In this document: piece by piece, positions 144 through 30,606 of the stretch
Layout: each line of letters begins with the position of its first letter
Position numbering within the stretch: the first letter of the stretch is position 1
Position numbers and translations under genes: made by a program
Notes under the pieces: generated by a model
What the model was told of the DNA's origin: nothing
The model's database searches: none
The model's input: only the letters and a program-made list of their open reading frames with translations
Virus record (IMG/VR): IMGVR_UViG_3300043425_000757
Location: 1-30,608 of that record
Reading direction: 5' to 3' (one strand)
DNA length: 30,608 nt
Origin: a virus

Positions 144-959
144 ATGATCAAGATCAACATCGCCGCTGACATCTCCGGCGCCATGCGCCTGGTGCAGCAG
201 GAATTGCCCCGGGCCATGCCCTACGTGCAGGCCAGCATGCTCACCAGTCTGGCCAAGCGGGTGCAGGACAAGGTGCGCGCGCAGATGCCGGTGAGCTTTG
301 ACCGGCCCACGCCGTTCACCGTGCGTGGCGTGTTCACCAAAGCGGCCAGCAAGACCGAGCCGGTGGCCGAGGTGTACTTCCCGGAGTCACGCGAAGAGCA
401 GGGCAAGGCCACGCGCGAGTACATCCGCCCTGGTGCGCTGGGCGCGCCGGCCCGCCGCCAGAAGCGCACCGAGTTTCTGCTGACGCGCAAAGGGTATCTG
501 CCGCCGGGCTGGGTAACCACGCCCGGCTCAACGGCTGCCAAGGGCGGGTATATCGATGGTTATGGCAACGTCAAACCCCGCACCTACGCGCAAATAGTCA
601 ACGTCCTGCAACTCAAGAGGTTTGAGACCAAACAGGCGCGCAGTATTGCGGCCGCGTCGCAAAAACGCTCCGCCAATATGGGCGTGGACGTGGAATTCTT
701 TGCCGTCAAACCCGGCACGAATAAGAGCGGGCCCGGTGGATCGTGGTTACCACCTGGCGTGTACCGCCGCGTGGGCAAGAAGAAGGTCGAGAGCCTGCAG
801 CAGATTCTGAAGTTTGTGCAGAAGGCCTCGTACCGCCCGCGCATCGACATCGAGGCCCTGGCCCGCACCGAGGTGCGCGAAGCCCTGCAGCCTGAGTTCG
901 AGAAAGCCTTTGCCAGCGTGAAGGCCCGGTTTGCAGCGCGTGACGCGCGGGGCCGCTGA
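144..959 (+). CDS. Phage protein of unknown function upstream of terminase
   Basis: This encodes 271 aa and its stop lies 3 nt before the small terminase start, so it is probably co-transcribed with the packaging genes. The protein is basic. Its N-terminal third (residues about 1-60) looks helical and reads like the start of minor-tail or tail-completion proteins, with a charged helical C-terminus (about 225-271). A resemblance to lambda gpZ-type proteins is possible but weak, and gpZ normally sits after the capsid genes. No catalytic motif, signal peptide or membrane segment is visible. The start is the first ATG of the frame and has only a weak Shine-Dalgarno sequence. I am confident it is a gene because it is long and spaced as in an operon, but not of its role. 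Confidence 0.7.
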   Translation: MIKINIAADISGAMRLVQQELPRAMPYVQASMLTSLAKRVQDKVRAQMPVSFDRPTPFTVRGVFTKAASKTEPVAEVYFPESREEQGKATREYIRPGALGAPARRQKRTEFLLTRKGYLPPGWVTTPGSTAAKGGYIDGYGNVKPRTYAQIVNVLQLKRFETKQARSIAAASQKRSANMGVDVEFFAVKPGTNKSGPGGSWLPPGVYRRVGKKKVESLQQILKFVQKASYRPRIDIEALARTEVREALQPEFEKAFASVKARFAARDARGR

Positions 960-962
960 GCG

Positions 963-1523
963 ATGGACCTGGACGCCACCTGCACCCAGGGCGCCTTTGG
1001 TGAGCTGATTGGCGTGAGCCAGCCGGCCGTCTCCGAGATGGTGTCCAAGCAGATCCTGCAGCCCGGCGACACCGCCCGGCAGTGGCTGCTGAGCTACTGC
1101 GCCCACATGCGTGAGCAGGCTGCCGGCCGCGGCGCAGACGGCGAGCTGGCCTTCCAGCGCAGCGAGCTGGCCCGCGTGAGCCGCGAGCGCGCCGAGATCA
1201 AGCTCGCCCTGGAGCGCCGCCAGTTCGCGCCCGTGGCCCTGCTGGAGCAGGTGCTGGCCACTGTGGGCCGCAGCATCGTGGGCGTGCTGGAGCCGCTGCA
1301 CGTCAACCTGCACCGCCAGTGCCCGGCCCTCACGGCTGAAGACCTCAAGCTCATCCAGATTGAGATCTCGCGCGCATGCGACGTGGCCGTGCAGGCCTCG
1401 CTGGCCATGCTGGACGTGGAAGACGAAGCCGAAGGCCCTGCTGGTGCAGCCGACGCCGCCGCAGATGCCGCCGCAGACCTGGCCAGCCAACTGGCCGAAG
1501 CCCTCGGCGACGAAGACGAATGA
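963..1523 (+). CDS. Terminase small subunit, Nu1-like
   Basis: This 186-aa protein matches the lambda gpNu1 family, which recognises cos DNA and brings the large subunit to it. A helix-turn-helix lies near the N-terminus (about residues 11-29, GAFGELIGVSQPAVSEMVSK), the usual place for the winged-helix DNA-binding domain. It is followed by a helical, Arg/Glu-rich segment (about 58-85) and an oligomerisation region. The tail after about residue 155 is Ala/Asp/Glu-rich and probably contacts the large subunit. The length agrees with Nu1 (181 aa). The large terminase follows 16 nt after the stop. No strong Shine-Dalgarno precedes the ATG, so translation may be coupled to the upstream gene, whose stop is 3 nt away. 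Confidence 0.85.
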   Translation: MDLDATCTQGAFGELIGVSQPAVSEMVSKQILQPGDTARQWLLSYCAHMREQAAGRGADGELAFQRSELARVSRERAEIKLALERRQFAPVALLEQVLATVGRSIVGVLEPLHVNLHRQCPALTAEDLKLIQIEISRACDVAVQASLAMLDVEDEAEGPAGAADAAADAAADLASQLAEALGDEDE

Positions 1524-1539
1524 GCCGCCCGCCCGCACC

Positions 1540-3813
1540 ATGAGCGCCCGCGACCTCCCGCCCCACATCCAGCGCCAAGTCTGGCTGCACCAGGCCGCCG
1601 AGCTGCGCCGCAGCATCCGCGCCGCCGTGGCCAAGGGCCTGGAGGCGATGAAGACGCCCGAGCCCCTGACCCTGGACGAATGGGCCGAGCGGCACTTCTA
1701 CCTATCCGCCGAATCCAGCCAGGGCGAGAAGCGCTGGCAGAGCTACCCCTTCCAGCGCGCCATGCTGGGCGCCATGGGCGATGACGACATCGAGGAGGTG
1801 GACATCCGCAAGAGCGCGCGGGTGGGGTATACCAAGATGCTCCTGGCCAGCATCGGCTACGACGCCCAGCACAAGCGTCGCAACCAGGCGCTGTGGCAGC
1901 CCACCGACGGCGACAGTGACGAGTTCACCAAGGCCGAGCTGGAGCCCATGCTGCGTGACGTGAAGATCATGCAGACCGTGTTCCCCCGCTTCATGGCCAA
2001 GAGCAAGCAGAACACGCTCAACATGAAGAAGTTTCTGGGGTCCATCCTGTACCTCAAGGGCGGCACCAGCGCCGGCAACTTCCGCCGCATGACGCTGCAG
2101 AGCGCCAAGCTCGATGAGTTCGACGGCTTTGACCAGAAGATCGAGAAGAGCGCAGACCCCTTCACCCTGGCCTGGAAGCGCCTGGAAGGCGCCACCTACC
2201 CCAAGATCATCTGCGGCACCACGCCCCGCATCAAGGGCCTGAGCCACATTGAAAAGCGCGAGACCGCCGCCGATGCCCGCCTGCGCTTTCACATCACCTG
2301 CCCGCACTGCCAGGTTGAGCACCCGCTGGCCTGGGGCGGCAAAGACGTGCGCCACGGCTTCAAGTGGGACGCGCACGACCCCGAAGGCACCGTGCGCCAC
2401 CACTGCCCGCACTGCCTGGGCAGCATCACCCAGGCGGACTACCTGCGCTTGTGGCAAGACGGTGTGTGGGTGAGTGAATGCGGCAACTACCGCGCCCACG
2501 GCCAGCCCTACCGCTGGACAGATGGCACGGGCACGCCCCTGCTCAAGCCCCCGCGGCATGTGGCCTTCCACGTGTGGACGGCCTACAGCCCGCAAACCAC
2601 CTGGGCCGCCATCGTCCGCCAGTTCCTGCAGTGCATCAAGGCCAAGGAAGCCGGAGACAAGGCCCCGCTCGAAGGCTTTGTGAACGAGACCCTGGGCGAG
2701 ACCTGGGAAGAAGAAGTCGAGAAGGCCGAAGCGCACGAGCTGCAAAAGCGCGCCGAAGATTACCCCCTGCGCCGCGTGCCCGTGGGCGGCCTGCAACTGG
2801 TGGCCGGCGTGGACGTGCAAGACAAGCGCTGGGAGGTCACCGTGTGGGCCATTGGCCGCGGCAGCGAGATGTGGGCCGTGGACTACCAGGTCATTGACGG
2901 CAACCCCGCCGACGAGCGCGAGTGGGAAGCACGCCTGCACCCCTACCTGCAGGCCCCGCTCACCCACTGGCACGGCGCCCCGATGAAGATCGCCGCCAGC
3001 GCCATCGACACGGGCGGCCACTTCACCCACCAGGCCTACAACTTCTGCCGCCTGCACCACGGCCACAAATACTTCGCCATCAAGGGCGACAGCAAAGAGG
3101 GCATGCCCATCAAGGGCCGCAGCAGCAGCCAGGACGTCAACTGGCGCGGCCGCATCGTCAAGGGCGGCGTGCGCCTGTGGTTAGTTGGCACTGACACCGC
3201 CAAAGACAACCTGTTTGAGCGCTTCAGGGTGCAGCGCCCAGGCGCGGGCTACATCCACTTCAGCAAGGCCCTGCCGCTGGAGTGGTTCAAGGGCCTCACC
3301 TCCGAGGTGCGCCGCACCGTGCGCACCAGCAGCGGCGAGAAGGTGCGATGGGTCAAGACCACCGCCCGCAACGAGCCGCTCGACACCACCGTCTACGCCC
3401 TCTTCGCCAGCCAGATGCTCGATCACCACAAGCTCAGCGACGCGCAGTGGGCCAAGCTGGAGAACGACCTGCTGCCTGACCTGTTTGACCTGGCCGCATC
3501 TCCCGCACCTGTGCCGCTGCTGACCCCGCCGGCCACCGCGCTGCCCCCGCTGGCCGCAGGCCAGATCGAGGTGCGTGACGCACCGCCCGCGCCGCCAGCG
3601 CTCGCCAACTCATCAGCGGGGCTTACAGGTTCGGTGACGCTGAGTGTTTCAACGACAACAGAGCCACTGTTTGCCGCCGCCGCGCCCGCCCTCAGCCCGC
3701 CACCGCCCGCCGTACTCAACACCGCCCCCCGGCGCAAGCCCGCCCCGCCGCCCGCCGCCCCGGCCCCCTTTGTCAGCCCCTTTGCCAAGCCTGAATGGAG
3801 CGCCCGCCTGTGA
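1540..3813 (+). CDS. Terminase large subunit, lambda gpA-like
   Basis: This 757-aa packaging motor and nuclease belongs to the lambda gpA family. The variant Walker A (K91-SARVGYT-K99) is nearly the lambda one. The Walker B acidic pair is D192-E193. A CPHC...CPHC zinc-finger-like pair lies at residues 254-292, and the nuclease domain opens with the AGVDVQ strand (D425). The reading frame is open back to 1360 inside the small subunit gene, but homology to gpA begins after the ATG at 1540, so I use that start. Residues from about 652 on form a Pro/Ala-rich low-complexity tail of about 105 aa beyond the usual end of the family; lambda gpA is 641 aa. The C-terminus of gpA binds the portal, so the tail may extend that contact. 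The family implies cos-type packaging. Confidence 0.93.
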   Translation: MSARDLPPHIQRQVWLHQAAELRRSIRAAVAKGLEAMKTPEPLTLDEWAERHFYLSAESSQGEKRWQSYPFQRAMLGAMGDDDIEEVDIRKSARVGYTKMLLASIGYDAQHKRRNQALWQPTDGDSDEFTKAELEPMLRDVKIMQTVFPRFMAKSKQNTLNMKKFLGSILYLKGGTSAGNFRRMTLQSAKLDEFDGFDQKIEKSADPFTLAWKRLEGATYPKIICGTTPRIKGLSHIEKRETAADARLRFHITCPHCQVEHPLAWGGKDVRHGFKWDAHDPEGTVRHHCPHCLGSITQADYLRLWQDGVWVSECGNYRAHGQPYRWTDGTGTPLLKPPRHVAFHVWTAYSPQTTWAAIVRQFLQCIKAKEAGDKAPLEGFVNETLGETWEEEVEKAEAHELQKRAEDYPLRRVPVGGLQLVAGVDVQDKRWEVTVWAIGRGSEMWAVDYQVIDGNPADEREWEARLHPYLQAPLTHWHGAPMKIAASAIDTGGHFTHQAYNFCRLHHGHKYFAIKGDSKEGMPIKGRSSSQDVNWRGRIVKGGVRLWLVGTDTAKDNLFERFRVQRPGAGYIHFSKALPLEWFKGLTSEVRRTVRTSSGEKVRWVKTTARNEPLDTTVYALFASQMLDHHKLSDAQWAKLENDLLPDLFDLAASPAPVPLLTPPATALPPLAAGQIEVRDAPPAPPALANSSAGLTGSVTLSVSTTTEPLFAAAAPALSPPPPAVLNTAPRRKPAPPPAAPAPFVSPFAKPEWSARL

Positions 3814-17236: not shown

Positions 17237-20200
17237 ATGAGCAACATCGGCATTTCGCTCACCGGAGATGACCGACAGCTGCTGCAGATCCTGCAGCAGA
17301 TGGAAGGCCACCTCAAGCACATCAACGATGTGGCGCAGAAAGCCATGCGCGGCACCAATGCCGCAGCAGAGCAGGCCGCGCAGGCTTTCAGGGGCGTGCA
17401 ACAGGCCGCAGGTGGCGCCGCACAGGCCGCAGCCGAGGCCAGCAGCGCCATGTCGGGCTACACCGTGCAAAGCCGCGAGGCCCGTGTGGAAGCCAACCTG
17501 CTGCGCCAGGCTAACCGCCAGCTTTCCATGCAGATGACCGATGTGGTCACCAGCCTGGCCAGCGGCATGCCCGCCTGGATGGTGTTCATCCAGCAGGGCG
17601 GGCAGATCCGTGATTCATACGGCGGGGTAGGGCAGGCCTTGCGAGGTGTGGGCACGTATCTGCGCACGCTGATCAACCCGCTCACGGCCGCTGCGGCGGT
17701 GCTGGCTGCATTTGGCGCGGCCGCGTTTGTGGGCGCGCGTGAAATGGACGCCTACGTCAAGGCCCTCACGCTCAGCGGCAACGCTGCGGGCGTCACGGCC
17801 GGCGCGCTGGACCAGATGGCCGCCCGCATTGACAACGTGGCCGGCACGCAAGGCCGCGCCGCGGAGGTGCTGGCGCTGATTGCCGCCAATGGCGACATCG
17901 GCGCTGCAAGCCTGGAGCGCGTGGCGCAGGCCGCCATCCAACTGGAGCGGGCCGGCGGCCCGGCCGCTGAAGAGACCGTCAAGCAATTCGCTGCCCTGGG
18001 CAAAGACCCGGTGGATGCATCGCTCAAGCTCAACGAAAGCACACGGTTTCTTACGGTGTCGCTGTATGAGCAGATCAAGGCCCTGCAAAACCAAGGCCGC
18101 ACGGCCGAGGCCGCCGCCGTGGCCATGGCCGGCTACGCCACCACGGTGGAGCAGCGCACCGGTACGCTGGAAGGCCAGCTCGGCTACATCGAGCGCGCTT
18201 GGCGCGCTGTAAAAGATGGCGCCAAGGAGGCCTGGGACGCGATGCTGGGGCTGGGCCGTCAGGGCAGCCCTGAAAAGCAACTGGCCGACATCCAACGGCG
18301 TATTGCAGAAGTCACCACCAATCAGGCGGATGCCCGCTCAGACAATCGCGCCCGCTATCTGCCCATGCTGGACGCCCTGCGCTTGCAGGAAGGGCTGCTG
18401 CAAGAGCAGATCCGGCTACAGCGCAAAGGCCTGGATGTACAACACCAGCAAGCCGAAGCCGTCAAAGCACGCTCCGAGTGGGACCGCGCCGGCAACAAGC
18501 TGCTGACAGACGCCGAAAAGCTGGAGCGCGAGATCGTCGAGGCCCGCCGCCAGGGCGTGGCCGCTGGCATGAGCCAGGAAGCGATTGAAAAGCGCATCGC
18601 CGCCATCCGCGCGGCCAACGCGCCCAAGGCCAGCACGCAAGAGATGGACGCTGCAGCCAAGGCCACGGCTGACGCGCTCAAGGCTCACGACAAGTACGTA
18701 GAAAGCCTGGTCAAAGGCGTGGCCGCGGCCACCAAGGAAAACCAGGCCCTGGCCGACCAGGTGGCGCAGGTGCGCCTGGGCCAGCAGGCTTATGCCGAGC
18801 TGCTGAACGTGCGCGAAGAAGAGCAAGCCGTCCTGCTGGACTTGCAAGCCATCCGCGCGCTGGACCGCAACCTGGACGCCAAGGAGTACGAAGCCCTCAA
18901 GGCCCAGGCCGCCGCCATCCGCGAGCGCATCAACCTGCGCAAGGCCCTGGCCAATGCCACGGCGGAAGCCGCCGACCGCGAGATCATGGCCCGCCGCAGC
19001 GCCCTGAAAGACCAGGACGCGCTAGACATCATCGACACCGAGCGCCTGAAGAACTCGCAGTCCATCATCGACGCCATCAACCGCGAAGCCGAAGCGCTGC
19101 AGATGAGCAACATCGAGCGCGAAGTGGCCATCGCCCTGCTCGCGGCTGAGGCTCGCGGTATCAAGACCGGCAGCTACGAGTACGAGGAGTACGCCAAGAA
19201 CATCCGCGCGGCCATCGTCAACCGCGAAACCGTGCGCGCCAGCATTGCGCAGACCAAGACCATTGAGGAAGAGTGGCGCCGCACTGCAGACCAGATCGGC
19301 CAGTCGCTGACGGATGCGCTGATGACGGGCGGCAAGAGCGCCTGGGAGTACATCAAGGGGTTGTTCCGGTCCATGGTGCTGCGGCCTGTGATCCAGGCGG
19401 TGGTCAACCCCATCGTGGGTGCCACCCAGGCTGCAGTCGGCTCAGCCCTCGGCCTTTCTGCAGGATCTGCAGCCGCTGGGACAGCGTTTGGCAACGCGGC
19501 AGGCGCGGCCATTGGCTCGGCCATCTTCGGCTCCAGCGCGGCCTACGGTGCAGCCATCGGCACCACCAGTGTGGCCGCGGGCTCACAGGCCGCCATGCTG
19601 GCAGCACAGACGGGCAGCTTCGGTGCGGCGGGTTTGACGGCCACCAGCAGCGCCGCCGCAGGCGCCGGGTCGGGGTTCATGGCCACCGCCGCAGCCGCCG
19701 GGCCCTACGTGCTGGCCGCGCTGGCCGTGCTCAACGCTGTGGGCGCCTTCCGCTCCAAAAAGATCGTCGGCGGCGGCCTCACCGGCACCCTGGGCGAAGG
19801 CGACATCCAGAGCTACGACCTGCAGCGCCGCGGCGGCACGCTGTTCGACGGGCCCGACTACAGCATGGTCAACCAGCAGGTGAGCGCTGAAAGCCGCGCC
19901 ATCCAGACCGCCTACGAGGCACTGCGCACCAACGCCGCCAGCATGGCCGAGTCGCTGGGCCTGAGCGGTGACGCCGTGCGCAGCTTCACCACGCAGCTGG
20001 GCACCGACATCCTGCACAACGACCTGTCAGCCCGGGGCATCAAGCTCGATGGCCTGTCGCCTGAAGAGGCCGCCGCCAAGGTGCAGGGCGCGCTCAATCA
20101 GGCCAACGAAGACCTGGCCGCGTTTGTGCTGGGCGCCAGCCGCACCGTGACCGAGACCATCACCAGCAGCGTGGAAGACTGGGCCGAAGGCGAGCAAGGC

Positions 20201-23200
20201 TCCTACCTGCGCGGCTACCTCGAACAGGTCACCGAAGTCACCCGCACCATCGAAGCCACGGGCGTGAGCTACCGCCGCGAAGGCGAGACCAACGTCCAGA
20301 CCCTGCAGCGCCTGGCCAGCAGCCTGGCCACCGTCAACCCCGCGCTCGACGTGCTGGGCCTGAACCTCTACGCCACCAGCCTGGCCGGCGCAGACCTGGC
20401 CAGCCAACTGGCTGACGCCTTCGGCGGCCTTGAGGCCTTTGGCCAAGCCGCCGCCAGCTACTACTCGGAGTTCTACAGCGAGGCCGAGCGCACCGCCAAG
20501 ACCACAGAGCAGCTCACCAAGGCGCTGGGCGATATGGGCCTGACCCTGCCCGCCACCCGCGACGCCTACCGCCAGCTGGTGGAAGCGCAAGACCTCAACA
20601 CCGAGGCCGGCCGCAAAAACTTTGCCGCCCTGGTGCAGCTCAGCGGCACGTTCGCCGAGATCACGCCTGTGGTGGAAGACCTGGCCGACGCGGGAGAAAA
20701 CGCCACCGAGACCCTGCGCAGCGCCGCCGACATCCTGCGCGAGCGCCAGGGACTGGAGCGCGAGCTGCTGCAGCTGCAGGGCGACACCACAGCCCTGCGG
20801 GCCCTGGATCGTGCCGCCCTAGACGCCTCCAACCAGGCGCTCTTTGACCAAATCACCGCGCTGCAAGACAGCCAAGCCGCTGCGGCCGCTGCGGCAGACG
20901 CCGAGCGCTCCCTGGCCGCCGAGCGTGACCGCATCGCGCAAGAGCGTGCCGGCCTGGAGCGCCAGCTGCTGGAGCTGCAGGGCAACACCACGGCACTGCG
21001 CGCCCTGGACCGTGCTGCGCTGGACGCCAGCAACCGCGCCCTGTACGACCAGATCACGGCGCTGCAAGACAGCCAGGCCGCCACCGCAGCCGCCGCCCAG
21101 GCCGCGCAAGAGGCCGCAGACGCGGAGCGCGCCCTGGCCGCTGAGCGTGACCGCATCGCGCAAGAGCGCGCCGGCCTGGAGCGGCAACTGCTGCAACTGC
21201 AGGGCGACACCAACGCCCTGCGAGCGCTGGACCGCGCGGCGCTGGACGCGAGCAACCGAGCGCTCTTTGACCACATCACCGCGCTGCAAGACAGCCAGGC
21301 CGCCACCGCAGCCGCCGCCCAGGCTGCGCAAGAGGCCGCAGACGCCGAGCGCGCCCTGGCCGCCGAGCGTGACCGCATCGCGCAAGAGCGTGCCGGCCTC
21401 GAGCGCCAACTGCTGCAGCTGCAGGGCGACACCACGGCATTGCGTGCCCTGGACCGCGCTGCGCTGGACGAGTCCAACCGCGCGCTCTTTGACCAGATCA
21501 CCGCGCTGCAGGACAGCCAGGCCGCCGCCGCCGCTGCAGCACAAGCCCAGCGCGAGTACGCCCAGGCGGTGGAGACCGCCCAAGCCAATGTGGAGCGCGC
21601 CCGCGCCGCCGTTGAAAGCGCCGAAGCCGGCGTCAACGCCGTGCGCGAGGCGGGCACCAGCGCCTACCTAAGCGCCCAGGACCGCGTGGCCGCGGCGCAG
21701 GCCCGCATTGCCGAGATCAACGCCCAAATGGCCAACGAGGCGCGCGACGCTGCACTGCGGGTGCGCGAGCTGGGCACCAGCCTGCAGCAGTTCGTGACGG
21801 GTGAGTTTTCCACGCCGTCTCAATCCTTTGGCGCCCTGTTGCGCAAAGCCCTGGGCGGCGACACCGAGGCCATGCAGGGCCTGCCAGAAGCCGCGCGCGC
21901 GGCCATTGACGTGTCTCGCTCCTCAGCGCGCACCAGTGCCCAGGCTGCCATCGAGCGCGCCCGCATCCTCAGCAGCGTGGCTGAGGTGGCCGCAGTGGCT
22001 GCCGCCACCGCTGTGCCAGCAGGAGCCGCCGAGGTAAACCCCATGACCGCCGCCACCGCAGAGCTGGCCGCCGCCCAGGCCGAGCTGGCGGATGCGCTGA
22101 GTGTGGCCAACACCATAGGCGCGCCGCTCACACGCAAGGTGGAGGATCTGCTGGAGCGCTTTACCGCCGCGCAAGAGGTGCTGGCCAAGGCGCAAACAGA
22201 CTACGCCGCGGCGCAGCAGGTGCTGGCTGACATCAAGCTCAACACCGGCAACACCGTGACCGAGGTGACCAAGCTGCAAGGACTGGCCGCCAAAGCCGAG
22301 CTGGAAGTGCAACTCAAAGCCGTGGCAGAAAGCAACCTGCCAGACGACATCAAGGCGCTGATCGCAGACAAAGGCAAGACCTACACCGCCACCATCACAG
22401 CCGTGATGGACTCTGCGCTGACGGACGCAGAAAAGACGCTGCTGCTGGAAGCCAACAGCACCGGCCTGCGCTCGGTCATCTTGAGCAGCGCGTTCAAGAA
22501 CGTATTGACGGCCCAGGAGCAGCAAGCCCTGATGGCAGTCGATGAAACGGTCTTGCGCACCATCCAAGCCGTGGTGAGCACCGGCACGCTCACCAATGAC
22601 CAAAAGCTGCTGCTGCAGCAACAGTCTGAAACCGTCAGAAGAACCATTCAGACGCTGGTGGACTCCAGCGCGTTGACCGACGAGCAAAAGCGCATCCTTG
22701 GCCTGGTCACCAGCAGCACCAGCAGCACGCTCACTTTGTCGGGCACGCTGACGTTTGACCCCAGCAACTCCCTGCAAAGCATCTTCAACAACATCAGCGC
22801 CAGCAACGCCATGCTGGCCCGCCTGGTGCTGTCGCAGGTCAACCCCGCCACCAGCACCGTGGGCCAAAAGGCCAGCGCCTATGCCGGGCTGCGGCAGATG
22901 TACTCGGATGCCGACACGCGGCGCATTGTGGAAGTGCAGTTTGGCCCGCAAACCAATGAGGCCTGGGCGGCGCTGAAGCAGGCCGCTGGCTTTGCCACGG
23001 GCGGCGTGTTCACCAACGGCCTAGTGACCAGCGCCACTGCTTTCCCCATGGGGGTCATGGGCGAGGCCGGTCCTGAAGCCATCATGCCCCTGGGCCGCGG
23101 CGCCGACGGCAGCCTGGGCGTGCAGATGCTGGGCAACAGCACGCGCCGCGACGAGGTTTTGGTGGCCGAGATCCGCGCCCTGCGCGCTGAAGTCACCGAG

Positions 23201-23308
23201 CTGCGTGCCGAAGCCCGCTCCACGGCCGTGGCCACCAACAAGACCGCGCGCATCCTGGACCGCGTCACGCCTGACGGCAACAGCTTGCAAACGGTGGCCG
23301 CCGCATGA
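17237..23308 (+). CDS. Tail tape measure protein
   Basis: A 2023-aa tape measure. N-terminal about 330 residues match the lambda gpH type (QMTDVVTSLASGMPAWMVFIQQGGQI, YERIERAWRAVKDG-like segment at about 315). Long coiled-coil helices follow (about 340-690), then an Ala/Gly-rich hydrophobic region (about 712-838) that may insert in the host membrane. Residues about 1172-1434 hold four tandem repeats of 67-74 aa (LERQLLQLQG, ALRALDRAALDASN, ITALQDSQAA). A second set of about 35-aa repeats lies around 1695-1834 (SALTDAEKTLLLEA type). The C-terminus has the lambda-like FATGGVF and MGEAGPEAIMPLGRG. GAGGTGAG at 17223-17230 is the ribosome-binding site. Lambda gpH is 853 aa, so a tail near 300 nm is implied if length scales. 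Confidence 0.93.
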   Translation: MSNIGISLTGDDRQLLQILQQMEGHLKHINDVAQKAMRGTNAAAEQAAQAFRGVQQAAGGAAQAAAEASSAMSGYTVQSREARVEANLLRQANRQLSMQMTDVVTSLASGMPAWMVFIQQGGQIRDSYGGVGQALRGVGTYLRTLINPLTAAAAVLAAFGAAAFVGAREMDAYVKALTLSGNAAGVTAGALDQMAARIDNVAGTQGRAAEVLALIAANGDIGAASLERVAQAAIQLERAGGPAAEETVKQFAALGKDPVDASLKLNESTRFLTVSLYEQIKALQNQGRTAEAAAVAMAGYATTVEQRTGTLEGQLGYIERAWRAVKDGAKEAWDAMLGLGRQGSPEKQLADIQRRIAEVTTNQADARSDNRARYLPMLDALRLQEGLLQEQIRLQRKGLDVQHQQAEAVKARSEWDRAGNKLLTDAEKLEREIVEARRQGVAAGMSQEAIEKRIAAIRAANAPKASTQEMDAAAKATADALKAHDKYVESLVKGVAAATKENQALADQVAQVRLGQQAYAELLNVREEEQAVLLDLQAIRALDRNLDAKEYEALKAQAAAIRERINLRKALANATAEAADREIMARRSALKDQDALDIIDTERLKNSQSIIDAINREAEALQMSNIEREVAIALLAAEARGIKTGSYEYEEYAKNIRAAIVNRETVRASIAQTKTIEEEWRRTADQIGQSLTDALMTGGKSAWEYIKGLFRSMVLRPVIQAVVNPIVGATQAAVGSALGLSAGSAAAGTAFGNAAGAAIGSAIFGSSAAYGAAIGTTSVAAGSQAAMLAAQTGSFGAAGLTATSSAAAGAGSGFMATAAAAGPYVLAALAVLNAVGAFRSKKIVGGGLTGTLGEGDIQSYDLQRRGGTLFDGPDYSMVNQQVSAESRAIQTAYEALRTNAASMAESLGLSGDAVRSFTTQLGTDILHNDLSARGIKLDGLSPEEAAAKVQGALNQANEDLAAFVLGASRTVTETITSSVEDWAEGEQGSYLRGYLEQVTEVTRTIEATGVSYRREGETNVQTLQRLASSLATVNPALDVLGLNLYATSLAGADLASQLADAFGGLEAFGQAAASYYSEFYSEAERTAKTTEQLTKALGDMGLTLPATRDAYRQLVEAQDLNTEAGRKNFAALVQLSGTFAEITPVVEDLADAGENATETLRSAADILRERQGLERELLQLQGDTTALRALDRAALDASNQALFDQITALQDSQAAAAAAADAERSLAAERDRIAQERAGLERQLLELQGNTTALRALDRAALDASNRALYDQITALQDSQAATAAAAQAAQEAADAERALAAERDRIAQERAGLERQLLQLQGDTNALRALDRAALDASNRALFDHITALQDSQAATAAAAQAAQEAADAERALAAERDRIAQERAGLERQLLQLQGDTTALRALDRAALDESNRALFDQITALQDSQAAAAAAAQAQREYAQAVETAQANVERARAAVESAEAGVNAVREAGTSAYLSAQDRVAAAQARIAEINAQMANEARDAALRVRELGTSLQQFVTGEFSTPSQSFGALLRKALGGDTEAMQGLPEAARAAIDVSRSSARTSAQAAIERARILSSVAEVAAVAAATAVPAGAAEVNPMTAATAELAAAQAELADALSVANTIGAPLTRKVEDLLERFTAAQEVLAKAQTDYAAAQQVLADIKLNTGNTVTEVTKLQGLAAKAELEVQLKAVAESNLPDDIKALIADKGKTYTATITAVMDSALTDAEKTLLLEANSTGLRSVILSSAFKNVLTAQEQQALMAVDETVLRTIQAVVSTGTLTNDQKLLLQQQSETVRRTIQTLVDSSALTDEQKRILGLVTSSTSSTLTLSGTLTFDPSNSLQSIFNNISASNAMLARLVLSQVNPATSTVGQKASAYAGLRQMYSDADTRRIVEVQFGPQTNEAWAALKQAAGFATGGVFTNGLVTSATAFPMGVMGEAGPEAIMPLGRGADGSLGVQMLGNSTRRDEVLVAEIRALRAEVTELRAEARSTAVATNKTARILDRVTPDGNSLQTVAAA
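20750..21540 (+). repeat. Four tandem repeats in the tape measure gene
   Basis: Unit starts at about 20750, 20951, 21173 and 21395, giving periods of 201, 222 and 222 nt. All are multiples of 3. Each unit codes a heptad-like helix with LERQLLQLQG, ALRALDRAALDASNRAL, ITALQDSQAA and ERALAAERDRIAQERAG; the last unit is incomplete. The DNA copies are close enough for homologous recombination, which would lengthen or shorten the protein in whole units. Confidence 0.85.
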
Positions 23309-24197: not shown

Positions 24198-24665
24198 ATG
24201 CCCACCTCACCCACCCCCATCACCACGCTGCCCACGGCGCCCAGCCGGGCAGACCCGGCCAACTTTGCCACCCGGGCTGATGCCTTTCTCGGCCAGCTGC
24301 CCACCTTTGGCACGCAGGCCAATGCGGTGGCCTCGGTCACGTACACCAACGCCGTGGAAGCACTGGCCAGCGCCAATGCTGCGCAGGCTGACCGCATCCT
24401 GGCGCAGGCGGCCCTGGCCGGCATCACGGCGCAAAGCCCAGCGGTCAACGCGGCGGCTGCAGCTGCCAGCGCAGCCGCCGCAGCCGCCTCGGCGGCAGTG
24501 GCACAGGCTGTCAGCCCCGACAGCCCGGTGCGCTTCAACACCCGCCGCATCGACGCCGCCTTGACCATTCCCAGCGCCTACAACGCCGGGTCCACCGGGC
24601 CCATCGCCATCGCTGACGGCATCACCGTCACCGTTCAAGACAACGCCACCTGGAGCATTCAATGA
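24198..24665 (+). CDS. Tail fibre adaptor, Ala-rich coiled coil
   Basis: A 155-aa protein. The N-terminus (PTAPSRADPANFATRADAFLGQLPTFGTQANAV) is the common start of phage tail fibre proteins. A helical Ala-rich stretch (about 55-105) suits a trimeric coiled coil. The last 40 residues (RRIDAALTIPSAYNAGSTGPIAIADGITVTVQDNATWSIQ) are the short beta cap often found at the end of fibres. GAAGGA at 24181-24186 could be its ribosome-binding site. It overlaps the DGR target gene by 4 nt (ATGA), so the two products are likely made together and probably meet in the virion, with this one as anchor for the variable protein. Confidence 0.7.
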   Translation: MPTSPTPITTLPTAPSRADPANFATRADAFLGQLPTFGTQANAVASVTYTNAVEALASANAAQADRILAQAALAGITAQSPAVNAAAAAASAAAAAASAAVAQAVSPDSPVRFNTRRIDAALTIPSAYNAGSTGPIAIADGITVTVQDNATWSIQ

Positions 24666-26005
24666 GCACTCTTGTCACCCGCACCATTCAAACCCCTGAC
24701 GGCTCGGCCGTCGCTTTCCCCAACGGCATCCGCATCGGCACAGGCGGCGCCGGCACGGTCAACCACATCGGCGTGGCCGGCCAGCAGGGCTTTGGCGTGG
24801 GCATCGCGCCCGAACTGCCCGCCGGCTTTGCCAAGCTCTACGGCACGGAAGACCCCGCCAGCGAGAACTACGGCAACTACCAGTACAGCGACGGCTCGGT
24901 GATGGTCTACATCCCGGCCTTCTACTACCGCTACGGCACGGGCAGCAACGGCGGCGCCATCAACGTGGTGGACATCAAGCCCTTTAGCCACTGGGCCAGC
25001 GTGGCCGATGCCAACGCTGCGGGCTACGCCCTGCACCGCGCCTTCTACAACGGCGGCAGCATCCGCCAGGGCGTGTTTGTGGACAAGTACCTGGCCAGCA
25101 ACAACGGCGGGGTGGCGTCCAGCCTGAAAAACGGCGTGGTCATCACCAGCGCACAGCGCGGCAGCCTGACCACGGCCACCTTCGCCAGCCTCACGGGCGC
25201 CCCATCCAACAACCTGGCCGGCGCCATTGCCGCAGCCAAAACGCGCGGCAGCCGCTTCTTCTGCAACACCCGGTTCATCCGCGGCGCCCTGGCCTTGCTG
25301 GCCAATGCGCACGGCTCAGCCGCCACCGGCACCACCTACTGCGCCTGGTACAGCGCCGGCAGCACCAACTTCCCCAAGGGCTGCAACAACAACGCGTTGG
25401 GCGACACCAATGACGGCGCTATCGCCTTTGTGGACGACGGCAACGGCACCTACGCCTGCGGCAAGACTGGCAGCGCCAACTTCATGGCGCGCACCACGCA
25501 CAACGGCCAACTCTGCGGTATTGCAGACCTCAACGGCGTGGTTTGGGAAACAGAGCTGGGCCTCACCTCCAACGGCACCAACTTCTACGTGCTCAAGACT
25601 GCCGCGGACGTGGCCACCATCACCGGCGGTACCACCCTGGCCACTGACGCCTGGGGCGCCACCGGCTTGGCCGCGCTGTACGACAGCATTGGCGCCACGT
25701 ACGAGAGCTTGACCAACTCGGCCAGCAACAAGGTGTTCGGCAACGCGGCACAAGTGCTCAGCGCAGCCACCAGCGGCACCGCCTGGGGATTTGCCGGCCT
25801 GGGTATTCCGCTGGTGGGCGGTGTGGGTGGCAGCAACCAGTTCGGCAACGACTACCTCTACGACGCCCGCACGACAGACCTCTGTGTGCTCTCTGGCGGC
25901 AGCTGGGGCATCGGCGGCGATGCCGGTGTCTGGGCGCTGCGCTTGGACTACTCCCGCGCCGGCTCGAGCAACGGCATCGGGTTGCGTGCCGCCTCTTACC
26001 TGTAA
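24662..26005 (+). CDS. DGR target: variable tail protein with C-type-lectin-like domain
   Basis: This 447-aa protein has a beta-rich N-terminal region and a C-terminal domain with the pattern of DGR variable proteins (formylglycine-generating-enzyme/C-type lectin fold). Supporting segments are VWETELGL, AWGFAGLGIPLVGG, LCVLSGGSWG and GVWALRLDYSRAGSSNGIGLRA. The last 41 residues hold the variable region. Residues 414, 416, 417, 427, 429, 430, 434, 436, 437 and 438 are encoded by AAC in the template; here they are S, G, I, R, D, Y, G, S, N and G. The conserved W415 and the VWAL and IGLR strands lie in fixed positions. The ATG overlaps the fibre adaptor stop, with GGAG at 24653-24656 in front. 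It most likely binds the host receptor at the tail tip. Confidence 0.9.
   Translation: MSTLVTRTIQTPDGSAVAFPNGIRIGTGGAGTVNHIGVAGQQGFGVGIAPELPAGFAKLYGTEDPASENYGNYQYSDGSVMVYIPAFYYRYGTGSNGGAINVVDIKPFSHWASVADANAAGYALHRAFYNGGSIRQGVFVDKYLASNNGGVASSLKNGVVITSAQRGSLTTATFASLTGAPSNNLAGAIAAAKTRGSRFFCNTRFIRGALALLANAHGSAATGTTYCAWYSAGSTNFPKGCNNNALGDTNDGAIAFVDDGNGTYACGKTGSANFMARTTHNGQLCGIADLNGVVWETELGLTSNGTNFYVLKTAADVATITGGTTLATDAWGATGLAALYDSIGATYESLTNSASNKVFGNAAQVLSAATSGTAWGFAGLGIPLVGGVGGSNQFGNDYLYDARTTDLCVLSGGSWGIGGDAGVWALRLDYSRAGSSNGIGLRAASYL
25880..25996 (+). repeat. DGR variable region (VR)
   Basis: This 117-bp block aligns without gaps to the template at 26523-26639 (offset 643). I count 17 mismatches, all at template adenines: 12 A to G, 3 A to C and 2 A to T; nine of the 26 template adenines are unchanged. 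No other base differs. The mismatches are at 25889, 25902, 25907, 25908, 25911, 25916, 25919, 25940, 25941, 25946, 25949, 25961, 25962, 25968, 25973, 25974 and 25992. Homology stops abruptly on both sides. Confidence 0.97.
25977..25996 (+). other. Probable initiation of mutagenic homing (IMH) site
   Basis: The GC-rich 3' end of the VR, which in known DGRs marks where cDNA integration begins. Its only difference from the template equivalent (26620-26639) is C at 25992 against A at 26635. This may be a fixed IMH/IMH* difference rather than a mutagenesis event. Confidence 0.65.
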
Positions 26006-26012
26006 CTCTGAC

Positions 26013-26034
26013 GCCTGGCGCGAAAGCGCCGGGC
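26013..26034 (+). promoter_or_regulatory. DGR target-recognition hairpin/cruciform
   Basis: GCCTGGCGC (26013-26021), loop GAAA (26022-26025), GCGCCGGGC (26026-26034): a 9-bp stem with one T-G pair and a GNRA-type loop. It lies between the target gene stop and avd, 16 nt past the end of the VR. Known DGRs of the Bordetella phage BPP-1 type need a GC-rich hairpin of about this size and loop just downstream of the VR for efficient retrohoming. No such hairpin follows the template repeat. It could also act as a weak attenuator, but no T-run follows. Confidence 0.8.
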
Positions 26035-26041
26035 TCATGCC

Positions 26042-26518
26042 ATGACGCATCAGAACCGCAGCATCCATGCACAGGCCGGCTTGCACCGCAAGCTGGTGCT
26101 GTTTGCCGCGCAGCTGGAGATGTATCTGGCGCACTTTCCTTCGTGCCATAAGTACGCGCTGACGCAGCAGATCCGCGCGACCTACGTGGACGTCTACAAC
26201 CTGGTGACGGAGGCGCAAAAGCGCTACCACAAGCGCACCACGCTTACCCAGCTGGATGTGCGGCACGAGCAACTGCGCATGCTGCTGTTGCTGGCCCACG
26301 AGCTGGGGCTGTTCAACTTCAGCCGGGGCAAGCAAGACCCAGAACGCCCCGGCGAGCACCGGGCGCTGGTCATCTTGCGCCTGGTGGACGAGCTGGGCCG
26401 CATGATTGGCGGCTGGCTCAAGACGGAAATGCAGCCCGGGCCACAAGCCCAGGGCGCGCCGGCCACCGTGCCGGCAGAAGAATCCGGCAGCCTGGCTGCC
26501 GGTGCGGTGGGGGCTTGA
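26042..26518 (+). CDS. avd: DGR accessory variability determinant, Avd-like
   Basis: A 158-aa, mostly helical, basic protein. Its four-helix plan, length to about residue 125, and position between target gene and template repeat match the Avd family. In the BPP-1 system Avd forms a pentameric barrel that binds the reverse transcriptase and the DGR RNA and is needed for cDNA synthesis. Helices run about 5-32, 38-65, 67-95 and 104-130; the closing IGGWLKTEM corresponds to the conserved end of the family (LGSWI in BPP-1). The last 30 residues are an Ala/Gly/Pro-rich tail not found in the short Bordetella Avd. No clear Shine-Dalgarno: the recognition hairpin ends 7 nt before the ATG. Confidence 0.85.
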   Translation: MTHQNRSIHAQAGLHRKLVLFAAQLEMYLAHFPSCHKYALTQQIRATYVDVYNLVTEAQKRYHKRTTLTQLDVRHEQLRMLLLLAHELGLFNFSRGKQDPERPGEHRALVILRLVDELGRMIGGWLKTEMQPGPQAQGAPATVPAEESGSLAAGAVGA

Positions 26519-26522
26519 CATG

Positions 26523-26639
26523 CTCTGTGTGATCTCTGGCGGCAACTGGAACAACGGCAGCAATGCCGGTGTCTGGGCGCTGAACTTGAACAACTCCCGC
26601 GCCAACTCGAACAACAACATCGGGTTGCGTGCCGACTCT
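26523..26639 (+). repeat. DGR template repeat (TR)
   Basis: The invariant donor copy of the VR, lying between avd (stop 26516-26518) and the reverse transcriptase, the same order as in BPP-1. It contains 26 adenines, arranged mainly as ten AAC codons in the reading frame of the target; AAC is the codon form that allows most amino acids on A-mutagenesis without creating stops. It is transcribed in the same direction as the reverse transcriptase and would form the core of the DGR RNA. An ORF runs through it but has no support as a gene. Confidence 0.97.
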
Positions 26640-26800
26640 GAGCCTGGCTTGCCACATGCGGCATTGGCCGACCGGCGCAGAGGGAGCCCCCGTCGCGGCT
26701 GGTGCCGAAATCTGCCGCCCAGGCGCCCTTCAGTAGCCCGCTCAGCCCGTGTTGGCAGACCGGCGACCACTGGCGCCCAGGCACCTCAAGGGGCGCACGC
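26640..26800 (+). ncRNA. Spacer of the DGR RNA, TR to reverse transcriptase
   Basis: A 161-nt stretch without a supported gene. In known DGRs the RNA 3' of the TR is structured, binds the RT-Avd complex and helps prime cDNA synthesis. Its length here fits that role. Near its 3' end AAGGGG (26788-26793) is the ribosome-binding site of the reverse transcriptase. RNA ends and folding cannot be fixed by eye. Confidence 0.5.
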
Positions 26801-27820
26801 ATGAAGCGCCACGGCCAGCTCTTTGACCTCTTCGCGCACCCGCAGGCCCTCATGCAGGCCTACGTGCGCGCCCGCGAAGACAAGCGCAACAGCCGAGGCT
26901 GCTTTCTGTTTGAGCGCAACCTGGGCGCCAACATCCACGCCTTGCATGACGAGCTGCGCAGCCGCACCTACCAGCCCCAGCCCGTCAATGCCTTCTGGAT
27001 CAACGACGGCCGCAAGCCCCGCCTGATCGAGGCCCCAGCCTTCCGCGACCTGGTGGTGCAGCACGCCGTCTACGCCGTGGTGGGCCCCCTGTTTGAGCGA
27101 CGCTACATCGCCACCAGCTTTGCCTGCCGCACGGGCCTGGGCACCCACGCCGCCGCTGACTGGCTGCAAGCCGCCATGCGCCGCGCACCGCGCACCGCCT
27201 GGACGCTGCACGTAGACGTGCGCAAGTTCTTCTACAGCGTAGACCGCCAGACCCTGGCCATGCTGGTGCGCCAGGTCATCAAGTGCCCTGACACCCTGCG
27301 CCTGCTGGATTTGTTCGCCCAGCGGCCGGCACCCGCTGGCATTCCCATCGGCAACCTGATGTCGCAGACCTTTGCCAACCTGTACCTCAACAGCCTGGAC
27401 CACTTCTGCAAGCGCCAGCTCGGCGTGCAGGACTACGGCCGCTACATGGATGACGCCGTGATGGTGGCACCCAGCCGCGCCGCAGCCGCGCAATGGCTGG
27501 ATGGCATCCGCCAGCACCTTGGCCTGCTGGGGCTTGAAATCAGCCACCACAGCCTGCAGCCCCTGCGCCGCGGCCTCAACTGGGTGGGCTACCGCACCTG
27601 GGCCCGCGCGCGCTTTGTGCGCCCGCGCCTGGTCAGCCAGGTGCGCGCTGACGCCCGCGCCGGCCGCTTACAGGCCATCGTTTCACGCCTGGGCCACGCG
27701 CGCCACACGGCATCTCACCAACCCCTCGTCCACTACCTGACGGAGCACCACCATGCCCTCTCTCATCGCCTACCGCAAAACCATCACCGCCATCAACACC
27801 TTCGAGCTGCGGCTGCCTGA
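26801..27820 (+). CDS. DGR reverse transcriptase
   Basis: A 339-aa reverse transcriptase that copies the TR RNA with adenine-specific errors. Motifs: domain 1 region RKPRLIEAP (71-79); first catalytic Asp in LHVDVRKFFYSVD (D139); domain 4 GIPIGNLMSQ (180-189), where SQ replaces the SP of group II intron and retroviral enzymes, the hallmark of DGR enzymes; the catalytic YMDD (215-218); and the domain 7 region LNWVGYR. I use the ATG at 26801 with AAGGGG 7 nt upstream; the frame is open back to 26702 but that part is spacer. The last 22 codons overlap the next gene in another frame and code a His/Ala-rich tail. There is no endonuclease domain, as usual for DGR enzymes. Confidence 0.95.
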   Translation: MKRHGQLFDLFAHPQALMQAYVRAREDKRNSRGCFLFERNLGANIHALHDELRSRTYQPQPVNAFWINDGRKPRLIEAPAFRDLVVQHAVYAVVGPLFERRYIATSFACRTGLGTHAAADWLQAAMRRAPRTAWTLHVDVRKFFYSVDRQTLAMLVRQVIKCPDTLRLLDLFAQRPAPAGIPIGNLMSQTFANLYLNSLDHFCKRQLGVQDYGRYMDDAVMVAPSRAAAAQWLDGIRQHLGLLGLEISHHSLQPLRRGLNWVGYRTWARARFVRPRLVSQVRADARAGRLQAIVSRLGHARHTASHQPLVHYLTEHHHALSHRLPQNHHRHQHLRAAAA

Positions 27821-28598: not shown

Positions 28599-29075
28599 AT
28601 GAACTTCGACACCGCGCTCGATCTCCTCCTCGGCCATGAGGGCGGCTACTCCGACCACGCGGCCGACCCCGGCGGCAAAACCCGCTTTGGCATCACCGAG
28701 GCCGTGGCCCGCCAGGCGGGCTACCAGGGCGACATGCGCGAGCTGCCGCTCGACCTGGCAAAAACCGTCTATCTCGACCGCTACTGGCGCCCCATCCGCG
28801 CCGACGATTTGCCGCCAGGCATCCGGTACGTGATGTTTGACGCCGCCGTCAACAGCGGCCACCGCCAGGCCACTCTGTGGCTGCAGCGCGCCCTAGGCGT
28901 TGAGGCCGACGGCATCATCGGCCCGCAAACCCTGGCCGCCGCCTACGCGCAGGACATGCGCGCCCTCAAGCTCGGCGTGCTCGCCCAGCGCCTGCGCTTC
29001 ATGACCGGGCTGACCAACTGGCCGGCCTTCAGCCGCGGCTGGGCGCGCCGCATTGCAGACCTGATGGAGGCCTGA
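28599..29075 (+). CDS. Endolysin, glycoside hydrolase family 108
   Basis: A 158-aa muramidase with the GH108 signature at the N-terminus: LLLGHEGGYSDHAADPGGKTRFGI, in which Glu14 is the catalytic acid. The C-terminal part (about 85-158: LWLQRALGVEADGIIGPQTLAAA) is the peptidoglycan-binding domain (PG_binding_3) found with this family. No signal peptide or membrane anchor, so it needs a holin, which is encoded next to it. The ATG lies 7 nt after the preceding stop, and AGAAGG at 28583-28588 is a possible Shine-Dalgarno. The length is typical of the family. Confidence 0.93.
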   Translation: MNFDTALDLLLGHEGGYSDHAADPGGKTRFGITEAVARQAGYQGDMRELPLDLAKTVYLDRYWRPIRADDLPPGIRYVMFDAAVNSGHRQATLWLQRALGVEADGIIGPQTLAAAYAQDMRALKLGVLAQRLRFMTGLTNWPAFSRGWARRIADLMEA

Positions 29076-29079
29076 CCAC

Positions 29080-29481
29080 ATGAACCCGCTCATCCTCGGC
29101 CCGGTGCTTGACCTGGGCAAGTCCATCCTGGAGCGCTTCGTCCCAGACCCCGAAAAGAAGCGCGAGGCCGAAATGGAGCTTTTGCGCATGGCCGCTGAGG
29201 GTGAACTCAAACAAGTGATCGCCCAGCTCGAAATCAACGCCCGCGAAGCCCAGCACCCCAGCATCTTCGTCGCCGGATGGCGCCCCGCATTCGGCTGGTG
29301 CGGTGCCGCGGGCTTCGTCTACGCCACCATCCTGCAGCCCCTACTTTCCTGGTGGGCAGGCATTCGCGGCTGGCCCGCACCCCCCACTCTGAACATGGAC
29401 CTGATGTGGGTCGTCGTGACAGGCATGCTGGGGATTGGCGGCCTGCGCTCCATTGAAAAGATGAAGGGCGCGACCAGGTAG
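29080..29481 (+). CDS. Holin of the 3TM superfamily
   Basis: A 133-aa protein with GGAGG (29066-29070) 9 nt before the ATG. Residues 5-60 are an amphipathic/charged region beginning ILGPVLDLGKSILERFVPDPEKK and continuing AEMELLRMAAEGELKQVIAQLEIN. Then HPSIFVAGWRPAFGWCGAAGFVYATIL and LMWVVVTGMLGIGGLRSIEK form two or three membrane segments. This is the pattern of the 3TM holins (GTA_holin_3TM) that precede or follow endolysin genes in many proteobacterial phages. It forms the membrane lesion that lets the endolysin out. Confidence 0.85.
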   Translation: MNPLILGPVLDLGKSILERFVPDPEKKREAEMELLRMAAEGELKQVIAQLEINAREAQHPSIFVAGWRPAFGWCGAAGFVYATILQPLLSWWAGIRGWPAPPTLNMDLMWVVVTGMLGIGGLRSIEKMKGATR

Positions 29482-29495
29482 CTCATCGAATGAGC
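29481..29495 (+). other. Short palindrome just after the holin gene
   Basis: GCTCAT, 3-nt loop CGA, ATGAGC, starting at the last base of the holin stop codon. A 6-bp stem with no T-run. It may stop or protect the late mRNA, or be chance. Confidence 0.3.
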
Positions 29496-29555
29496 CTGGA
29501 CTGTGGGGATTTCTGCCCAAACTACCCCTCCAGATGCCTGTTTTGCGCCTATTTC

Positions 29556-29574
29556 ACGAGGGAGCTTCCCTCGT
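29556..29574. other. Palindrome beside the att core
   Basis: A perfect 8-bp inverted repeat, ACGAGGGA (29556-29563) and TCCCTCGT (29567-29574), with a 3-nt centre. It lies about 18 bp left of the tRNA fragment in a region free of genes. It could be an integrase or excisionase arm site or a transcription stop; there is no T-run on either strand. Confidence 0.45.
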
Positions 29575-29591
29575 AGCGCGGGTGTCGCATA

Positions 29592-29654
29592 GGATTCGAA
29601 ATCCGGCGTACTGGTTATCCAGTACCGAGGGTTCGAATCCCTCCCTTTCCGCCA
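29592..29654 (+). other. tRNA-Ser(CGA) 3' fragment, probable att core
   Basis: This matches the 3' two thirds of a bacterial tRNA-Ser: anticodon loop TTCGAAA (anticodon CGA), long variable arm (GTACTGG, TTAT, CCAGTAC), T arm GAGGG-TTCGAAT-CCCTC, the 3' acceptor strand CCTTTCC, G and CCA at 29652-29654. The 5' acceptor strand (GGAAAGG would be required) and a D arm are missing upstream, and the 5' side of the anticodon stem pairs only 3 of 5 positions. It is therefore not a working tRNA gene but the identity segment by which a phage integrates in the host tRNA and restores its 3' end. Confidence 0.85.
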
Positions 29655-29664
29655 AAATCAACAA

Positions 29665-29694
29665 CTTAGCGCGCTTTTCTCAAGTTACGCTAAG
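29665..29694. other. Inverted repeat between att core and integrase
   Basis: CTTAGCG (29665-29671) and CGCTAAG (29688-29694), 7 bp each, separated by 16 nt. It lies between the CCA end of the tRNA fragment and the integrase stop codon. It may be an arm-type binding site of the integrase or the end of its transcript. Confidence 0.35.
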
Positions 29695-29733
29695 GGCCCT
29701 CAGCAGCAGGCACTGTGGGGAAATCCTCCCAAG

Positions 29734-30606
29734 TCAGGCCCGTTTGCGGCCAATTTGGCCCACAGCTTCGGCCAAAGTGTCGGCATACAGGTGCGCGTAA
29801 CGCTGGGTGCTGACCGGGCTTTTGTGGCCCAGAACCTGGCCCACGGTGAAAAGCGGCACGCCCGCGTTGGCCATTTCGCTGGCCGCGCTGTGGCGCAGAT
29901 CGTGAAAGCGCACATCCCCCAGGCCCACCTTGTCCTTGGCGCGCGTCCATGCGGCCTGCACGCCGCGTTTGTGGCCCGTCAGGGGTAGGTGTTTGAGCAG
30001 GTGGCGGATGCGTGGGTGCGCGGGTATCACGCGCGGCTGGCCGTTCTTGCTGTCGGCCAGCACCAGCAGGTTGTCCTGCACCTGCACGTTCCACAGCTCG
30101 CCCAGGCGCATGCCGGTGTAGAAGCACACGCGGATGGCAATCTGCGCCTGCCAGCTGCCGCACGCGCGGCAGGCCTTGAGCATGCCCTCGCGCGTGATGT
30201 AGATCTTGCGGGCGTTGCGCACGGCCGGCAGCAGCATGCGGGCGGTGGGGTCGGTGTCGGTGAGGCCGTGGCGCTTCCAGGCCCAGCGGCACGCGGCTTT
30301 CAGCAGCGCCAGGCGGTTCTTCAGGGTGGCCGGGCCGGCGTCGGCGGTCTTGATGACCTCCTGGGCCACTGCGGGCAGCTCGCTCATCGGGCGGCCCTGC
30401 CAGGCCCATGCGATGGCGCTGAGGTGCTCGGCGGCGCTCTTGTAGCTCTTGAGCGCGGTCTTGTCGGTGAGGTAGTGCTTGACGGCCTGGTCGATCAGGG
30501 GTTCGTCGCGGGCGATGCCAGATGCAAGGCCGTAGAGGCGCGCGGTTTCCGTGCGGTCGAACGCGTCAGCTTGAGCTTGACTCCAGCCTTGCGGAAGCAG
30601 TCGTGT
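29734..30606 (-). CDS. int: Tyrosine-type integrase, 5' end cut by window edge
   Basis: The frame is open from the right edge to the TGA at 29734-29736, about 291 codons, with no need of the internal ATG at 30387. Visible N-terminal part: LPQGWSQAQADAFDRTETARLYGLASGIARDEPLIDQ and a SAM-like core-binding domain (ALKSYKSAAEHLSAI). The catalytic domain shows Arg in YTGMRLGEL, HDLRHSAAS with His and the second Arg, LGHK, and the nucleophile Tyr in STQRYAHLY. It catalyses integration and excision at the tRNA-Ser att site next to it. The gene points toward the att core, 80 bp away, as in many tRNA-specific phage integrases. The true start is outside the window. Confidence 0.92.
   Translation of the reverse strand, partial: TRLLPQGWSQAQADAFDRTETARLYGLASGIARDEPLIDQAVKHYLTDKTALKSYKSAAEHLSAIAWAWQGRPMSELPAVAQEVIKTADAGPATLKNRLALLKAACRWAWKRHGLTDTDPTARMLLPAVRNARKIYITREGMLKACRACGSWQAQIAIRVCFYTGMRLGELWNVQVQDNLLVLADSKNGQPRVIPAHPRIRHLLKHLPLTGHKRGVQAAWTRAKDKVGLGDVRFHDLRHSAASEMANAGVPLFTVGQVLGHKSPVSTQRYAHLYADTLAEAVGQIGRKRA

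Follow-up and report, generated by a model that had tools for sequence, protein, structure and literature searches.

A tRNA-Ser(CGA) 3' piece between lysis genes and integrase: a probable attP of a free environmental temperate phage genome

Integration into tRNA genes has been described for many phages and islands in the Islander collection, where attP carries a tDNA fragment that restores the target gene (PMC4383910). According to Table 1 of that paper, which covers 3919 islands, 3' fragments (3760) and the anticodon-centred class (2083) are both the commoner forms. In Variovorax, the phage VarioGold has its attB in tRNA-Ser(CGA), and a single att copy is reported in its capsid DNA (PMC9658991). 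VarioGold is a temperate siphophage of 39.4 kb with a Burkholderiales host, and in its gene table the spanins precede the att region and the integrase follows it (PMC9658991). Two isolated phages of Bordetella avium, IFTN2 and IFTN5 (OM293951, OM293954), are also of interest, and for these the TerL tree was taken to suggest headful packaging (PMC10269795). Neither tRNA nor attP is mentioned in the main text of the paper describing them (PMC10269795).

The DNA analysed here, called the window throughout, is a linear IMG/VR virus record taken at its full length of 30608 bases. The features that matter for its att region are the following.

144..959, + strand: minor tail protein, the first gene of the window (phrog_1924, E 1.1e-47)
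1360..3813, + strand: large terminase of the lambda gpA type (phrog_15, E 6.1e-216)
28599..29075, + strand: endolysin (phrog_315, E 4.9e-47)
29080..29481, + strand: holin (phrog_3427, E 5.6e-29)
29500..29518, + strand: left copy of a 19-mer, ACTGTGGGGATTTCTGCCC; candidate arm-type site (P arm)
29595..29654, + strand: 3' piece of tRNA-Ser(CGA), from the anticodon loop to CCA, here called the core; 58 of 60 bases as in an intact host tRNA-Ser(CGA) gene (L059)
29655..29711, + strand: spacer of 57 nt from CCA to the right 19-mer; similar to the sequence that follows a host tRNA-Ser(CGA)
29712..29730, + strand: right copy of the 19-mer, ACTGTGGGGAAATCCTCCC, just past the 3' end of the integrase gene; candidate arm-type site (P' arm)
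29734..30606, - strand: tyrosine integrase, 290 of 317 aa, with the N-terminus lost at the window end (phrog_1, E 2.3e-41)

The integrase is convergent with the lysis genes, and this tyrosine recombinase adjoins the core. Its full length of 317 aa was judged from L005, where a complete homologue with PF00589 lies at 9920-10873. Since the gene is truncated at 30606, this position is the edge of the window and of the record and not a feature boundary. The initial annotation had placed a tRNA-Ser 3' fragment between late genes and the integrase, and this holds, with holin and endolysin on the left and integrase on the right. Compared with the islands and phages defined by Islander, nothing different in kind is seen, the window being the free, attP form (PMC4383910). 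The resemblance to VarioGold is drawn from its published description; VarioGold differs in having an integrase of 390 aa and a common att of 15 bp, reported for the very end of the tRNA on its 3' side, against 60 bp from the anticodon loop here (PMC9658991). Within the phage collection, IFTN2 and IFTN5 have the integrases closest to that of the window, with 46-47% identity. IFTN2 also has an apparent tRNA 3' piece downstream of its integrase gene, but this piece reads as tRNA-Cys and has the same orientation as the integrase; it lies at about 8960-9035 of L069, is unannotated in the record and was read by eye.

Two other elements of the window are recorded on their own account. One is a complete diversity-generating retroelement (DGR) at 25880-27820, whose parts are listed below.

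25880-25996: variable repeat, at the end of gene 24662-26005
26042-26518: Avd
26523-26639: template repeat
26702-27820: reverse transcriptase

The two 117-base repeats differ at 17 positions, every one at a template adenine (17 of the 26 A). The other element, at 20678-21569, comprises four tandem copies of about 222 bases each within the large gene 17237-23308, and repeats of this type have further matches in relatives such as L039.

ARAGORN detected no complete tRNA in the whole window. Rfam at gathering scores found nothing, and no promoter- or terminator-like site stands out at 29400-29800. The tRNA piece is not a chance likeness, because its matches to host tRNA-Ser(CGA) genes reach E values as low as 1e-24. 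The stretch GGATTCGAAATCCGG...CCTTTCCGCCA starts at 29592, where the identity with the host begins, and the part common to all 33 relatives, TTCGAAATCC...GCCA (29595-29654), begins three bases later with the anticodon loop (TTCGAAA) and ends in CCA. Directly upstream of TTCGAAA the left flanks of the 33 contigs diverge, as in GCATAGGA, GCATGGGT and GCATGGCA. Within the core, 28 records including the window (L003 was omitted, being the same contig as L010) have a single varying base, located in the variable arm (24 C, 4 A). A search of the 60-base core against 50,697 phage records gave no match covering 80% of it.

On both sides of the core lies the 19-mer. Only two matches to ACTGTGGGGAWWTCYKCCC within 3 mismatches occur in the window, at 29500 and 29712, where 0.03 would be expected by chance, and the 19-mer is contained in a 28-base direct repeat. 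In 30 of the 33 contigs the left copy is found about 95 bases ahead of the core; among the remaining three, L148 and L152 are divergent and L156 has just 39 bases left of the core. One copy on each arm is what arm-type sites of lambda-type integrases look like, and the 19-mers are accordingly named here as candidate arm-type sites.

The lysis, att core, integrase order had been read in the initial annotation as that of attP and not of a single prophage. Exact scans of IMG/VR with the core, made independently of the integrase, returned 33 contigs (30 + 3), some of them near copies of one another; a looser pattern returned the same 30. The tRNA 5' half was found left of the core in 0 of these 33, and a phage arm occupies that place in every one. 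Right of the core an integrase is present in 31, the other two contigs stopping 41 and 28 nt past CCA. Phage DNA thus stands on both sides of the core, with neither the tRNA 5' half nor host DNA, which upholds the attP reading. Among the 40 IMG/VR loci L002-L041, ARAGORN likewise reported none with a tRNA-Ser. Junctions with complete genes can occur in IMG/VR, since ARAGORN does report, in L034, a tRNA-Cys that adjoins an integrase of 46% identity, though integrated copies could be under-counted because IMG/VR favours viral contigs and host-rich ones are under-represented. We consider it very likely that the region is attP and that the phage is temperate, has a lambda-type terminase and a host among the Burkholderiales, and is seen in a free form (circular or concatemeric, packaged or replicating) that assembly opened inside the integrase gene.

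A free genome should be traceable beyond the integrase, and here relatives had to be used. No terminal repeat is among the repeats listed for the window, and the record is classed as linear, without overlapping ends; closure is therefore deduced from relatives, as the record itself cannot be closed. The integrase of L005/G001 is 99.7-100% identical to that of the window over the window's part. Upstream of it are encoded an excisionase-like HTH protein, a deoxynucleoside monophosphate kinase, a cytosine methyltransferase and a repressor, followed further on by a Cro/YdaS-like regulator, a primase, a DUF5906 helicase-like protein and then the phrog_1924 minor tail protein. No host genes were recognised right of the integrase in L005. 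Read in its own direction, G001 has the order minor-tail homologue, helicase, primase, cro, repressor, methyltransferase, kinase, xis, int, and then core, holin, endolysin, DGR and tail. The phrog_1924 gene was found in 5 of the 10 records searched (G001, G003, G004, G005 and G009), each time near the record end and on the early side of the integrase. Nearly the whole map is present in G003 (38 kb), which runs from the terminase end through portal, tail, DGR, integrase and early region to the minor-tail gene at the other end. Together, the window and the gap of about 9.3 kb filled by G001 amount to a circle of roughly 40 kb.

Two checks proposed in the initial annotation were thereby addressed, and they came out in its favour. 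On the right of the integrase, the DNA of close relatives goes on into early phage genes and not host genes, up to the family of the window's first gene. As to closing of the contig to position 1, the record has no terminal repeat, and it is the relatives that run round to that first gene family. The early module of the window may nonetheless differ from that of G001, because its minor-tail gene is only about 29% identical to the G001 homologue and because the genes differ in L084, the closest left-flank relative. There, the 2.2 kb left of the window start hold genes almost without family match, unlike the G001 early region, and tblastx of this part against the early regions of relatives gave scattered short low-value matches only.

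The search for a host points to the Burkholderiales. Among 250 genomes of one family of this order, that of the Rubrivivax MAG G008, 243 match the core at E up to 1e-4, the best match being 98% over 62 bases. The best host gene, L059, is a complete tRNA-Ser(CGA) by ARAGORN and agrees with the window core at 58 of 60 bases and with the commoner phage form at 59 of 60. Candidate hosts thus do possess, as anticipated, a complete tRNA-Ser(CGA) whose 3' end is nearly that of the phage piece. No core with up to 3 mismatches was found in 399 genomes of the order; in another set of 399 genomes, from the family, no match exceeded 98% and no host had all 60 core bases. Genus searches around the hosts G462 and G463 covered one genome in each genus and did not reveal the exact host. 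The true host is probably a relative outside the genomes searched, judging from these matches.

One genome scan yielded no lysogen of this phage and three relatives, all at most 49% identical. The lysogens found, L042 and G484, are distant relatives only. In L042, a Rubrivivax MAG contig, an integrase of 47-48% identity is convergent with an adjoining complete tRNA-Ser(CGA); on its sequence, this junction is an attL as the attP model would predict. Complete tRNA-Cys genes stand beside related integrases in L034 and L044. Two further genomes were considered and rejected as evidence. In G439, 27 kb separate a tRNA-Ser(CGA) gene from a 3' piece, but the best match to this integrase there reaches 28-33%, which is no close relative. 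In G630 a complete tRNA-Ser is accompanied, at a distance of about 31 kb, by a second core, without this integrase family.

The gene order of the window would be identical if it were the junction of two tandem prophages at the same tRNA-Ser, with the late end of one, the core and the integrase of the next. Such an arrangement has a counterpart in G484, whose chromosome (L128-L134, 1987836-2057400) carries in succession 10.6 kb of a phage lysis end, the tRNA-Ser core, a 43% identical integrase, a 59-kb prophage and a second core. The 59-kb prophage has the integrase at one end, endolysin and spanin genes near the other, and a core copy at both. The 10.6-kb left piece is 99% identical to the lysis end of the prophage and is joined on its left to ZipA-like host coding sequence. 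Because the order lysis, core, integrase is here met inside a chromosome, order alone is no proof of attP. A tandem array, however, brings with it one attL and one attR with host DNA, while the tRNA 5' half was missing from all 33 core contigs and the relatives close to a single phage-sized circle. The precedent is itself odd: no tRNA-Ser(CGA) 5' half was found in the G484 genome, which may represent a damaged tandem, a deletion or an assembly fault. Tandem prophages are thus a very improbable source of the window. Of the readings offered by the initial annotation, a free or circular genome or a concatemer is favoured, and tandem elements are left without support.

Two further explanations question the region itself, and each is even less credible than a tandem junction. 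Assembly could have fused two unrelated pieces at the tRNA core, which is common to many phages (24 of 28 identical over the 60 bases), and it is precisely at CCA that the contigs L039 and L041 change partner. The cassette that starts near 29478 and includes the integrase recurs, however, in many independent contigs, and the isolated phage IFTN2, with its 47% identical integrase, also has its apparent tRNA-Cys 3' piece (read by eye) beside the integrase, so that an artefactual order is hardly believable. It is just as far-fetched to regard the tRNA piece as a decayed gene or a passenger and not as an attachment site. In contrast to its variable flanks, the core is nearly invariant, a single base differing across 28 records; on the 5' side it starts at the anticodon loop; and related integrases adjoin complete tRNA genes, of tRNA-Ser in L042 and of tRNA-Cys in L034 and L044.

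The DNA between CCA and the right 19-mer exists in two forms. When the 33 contigs were sorted by hand, the gap measured 56-57 nt in 16 and 1 nt in 17, the window having the long form. Long spacers start with AAATCAANNACTTAG, and the host L063/L135 has AAAATCAACGACTTAGCG directly after its tRNA-Ser(CGA) core, with AAAATCAACGACTTAGCGTCGTTTTC at the place of the spacer. Because of this resemblance, the long spacer may be captured host DNA. In an integrase tree of 23 rows, the spacer form switches at least 4 times, and at least 2 of these switches are forced by well-supported branches. The tree holds 23 of the 28 core-bearing rows, the rest having less than 850 bases of the integrase side, and L003 (= L010) and L017 were omitted.

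The pair L039 and L041 is of particular relevance for these switches. Their lysis sides are 100% identical over 9918 bases up to CCA; past it the spacers differ and the integrase sides are 97.8% identical (the switch lies in L039 1-433 and L041 1-273). Exchange at the core, through the integrase or through homologous recombination, is the simplest reading of these two sequences, and an assembly join at the shared core may also account for them. A broader proposal can be put forward only tentatively, as it seems rather unlikely to us. The attP could be a live point of exchange between co-infecting phages, at which the integrase or the core would rejoin the lysis side of one to the integrase side of another; such exchange would maintain both spacer forms, and the long form would be DNA captured downstream of a host tRNA-Ser gene.

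Under the preferred attP reading, the integrase would carry out the crossover between phage and host tRNA-Ser(CGA) within that part of the core which belongs to the anticodon loop. The 3' half borne by the phage would rebuild the tRNA at attL, beside the integrase gene, and the displaced 3' half of the host would end up after the lysis genes, at attR. The 19-mers flanking the core would be the places where the arm-binding domain of the integrase holds the DNA. Integration had been predicted to put the integrase and the lysis genes at opposite ends, and the 59-kb prophage of G484 agrees with this.

The layout of lysis genes, att and integrase is a textbook arrangement and already known; the phage group is new and has been seen only in metagenomes. 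The window is most likely a free phage genome. The analysis also gives a probable host group, Burkholderiales with this tRNA-Ser(CGA), and likewise the probable target site. The two spacer forms, together with the change of partner at the core, offer a small example of att-centred mosaicism among environmental phages that is open to testing.
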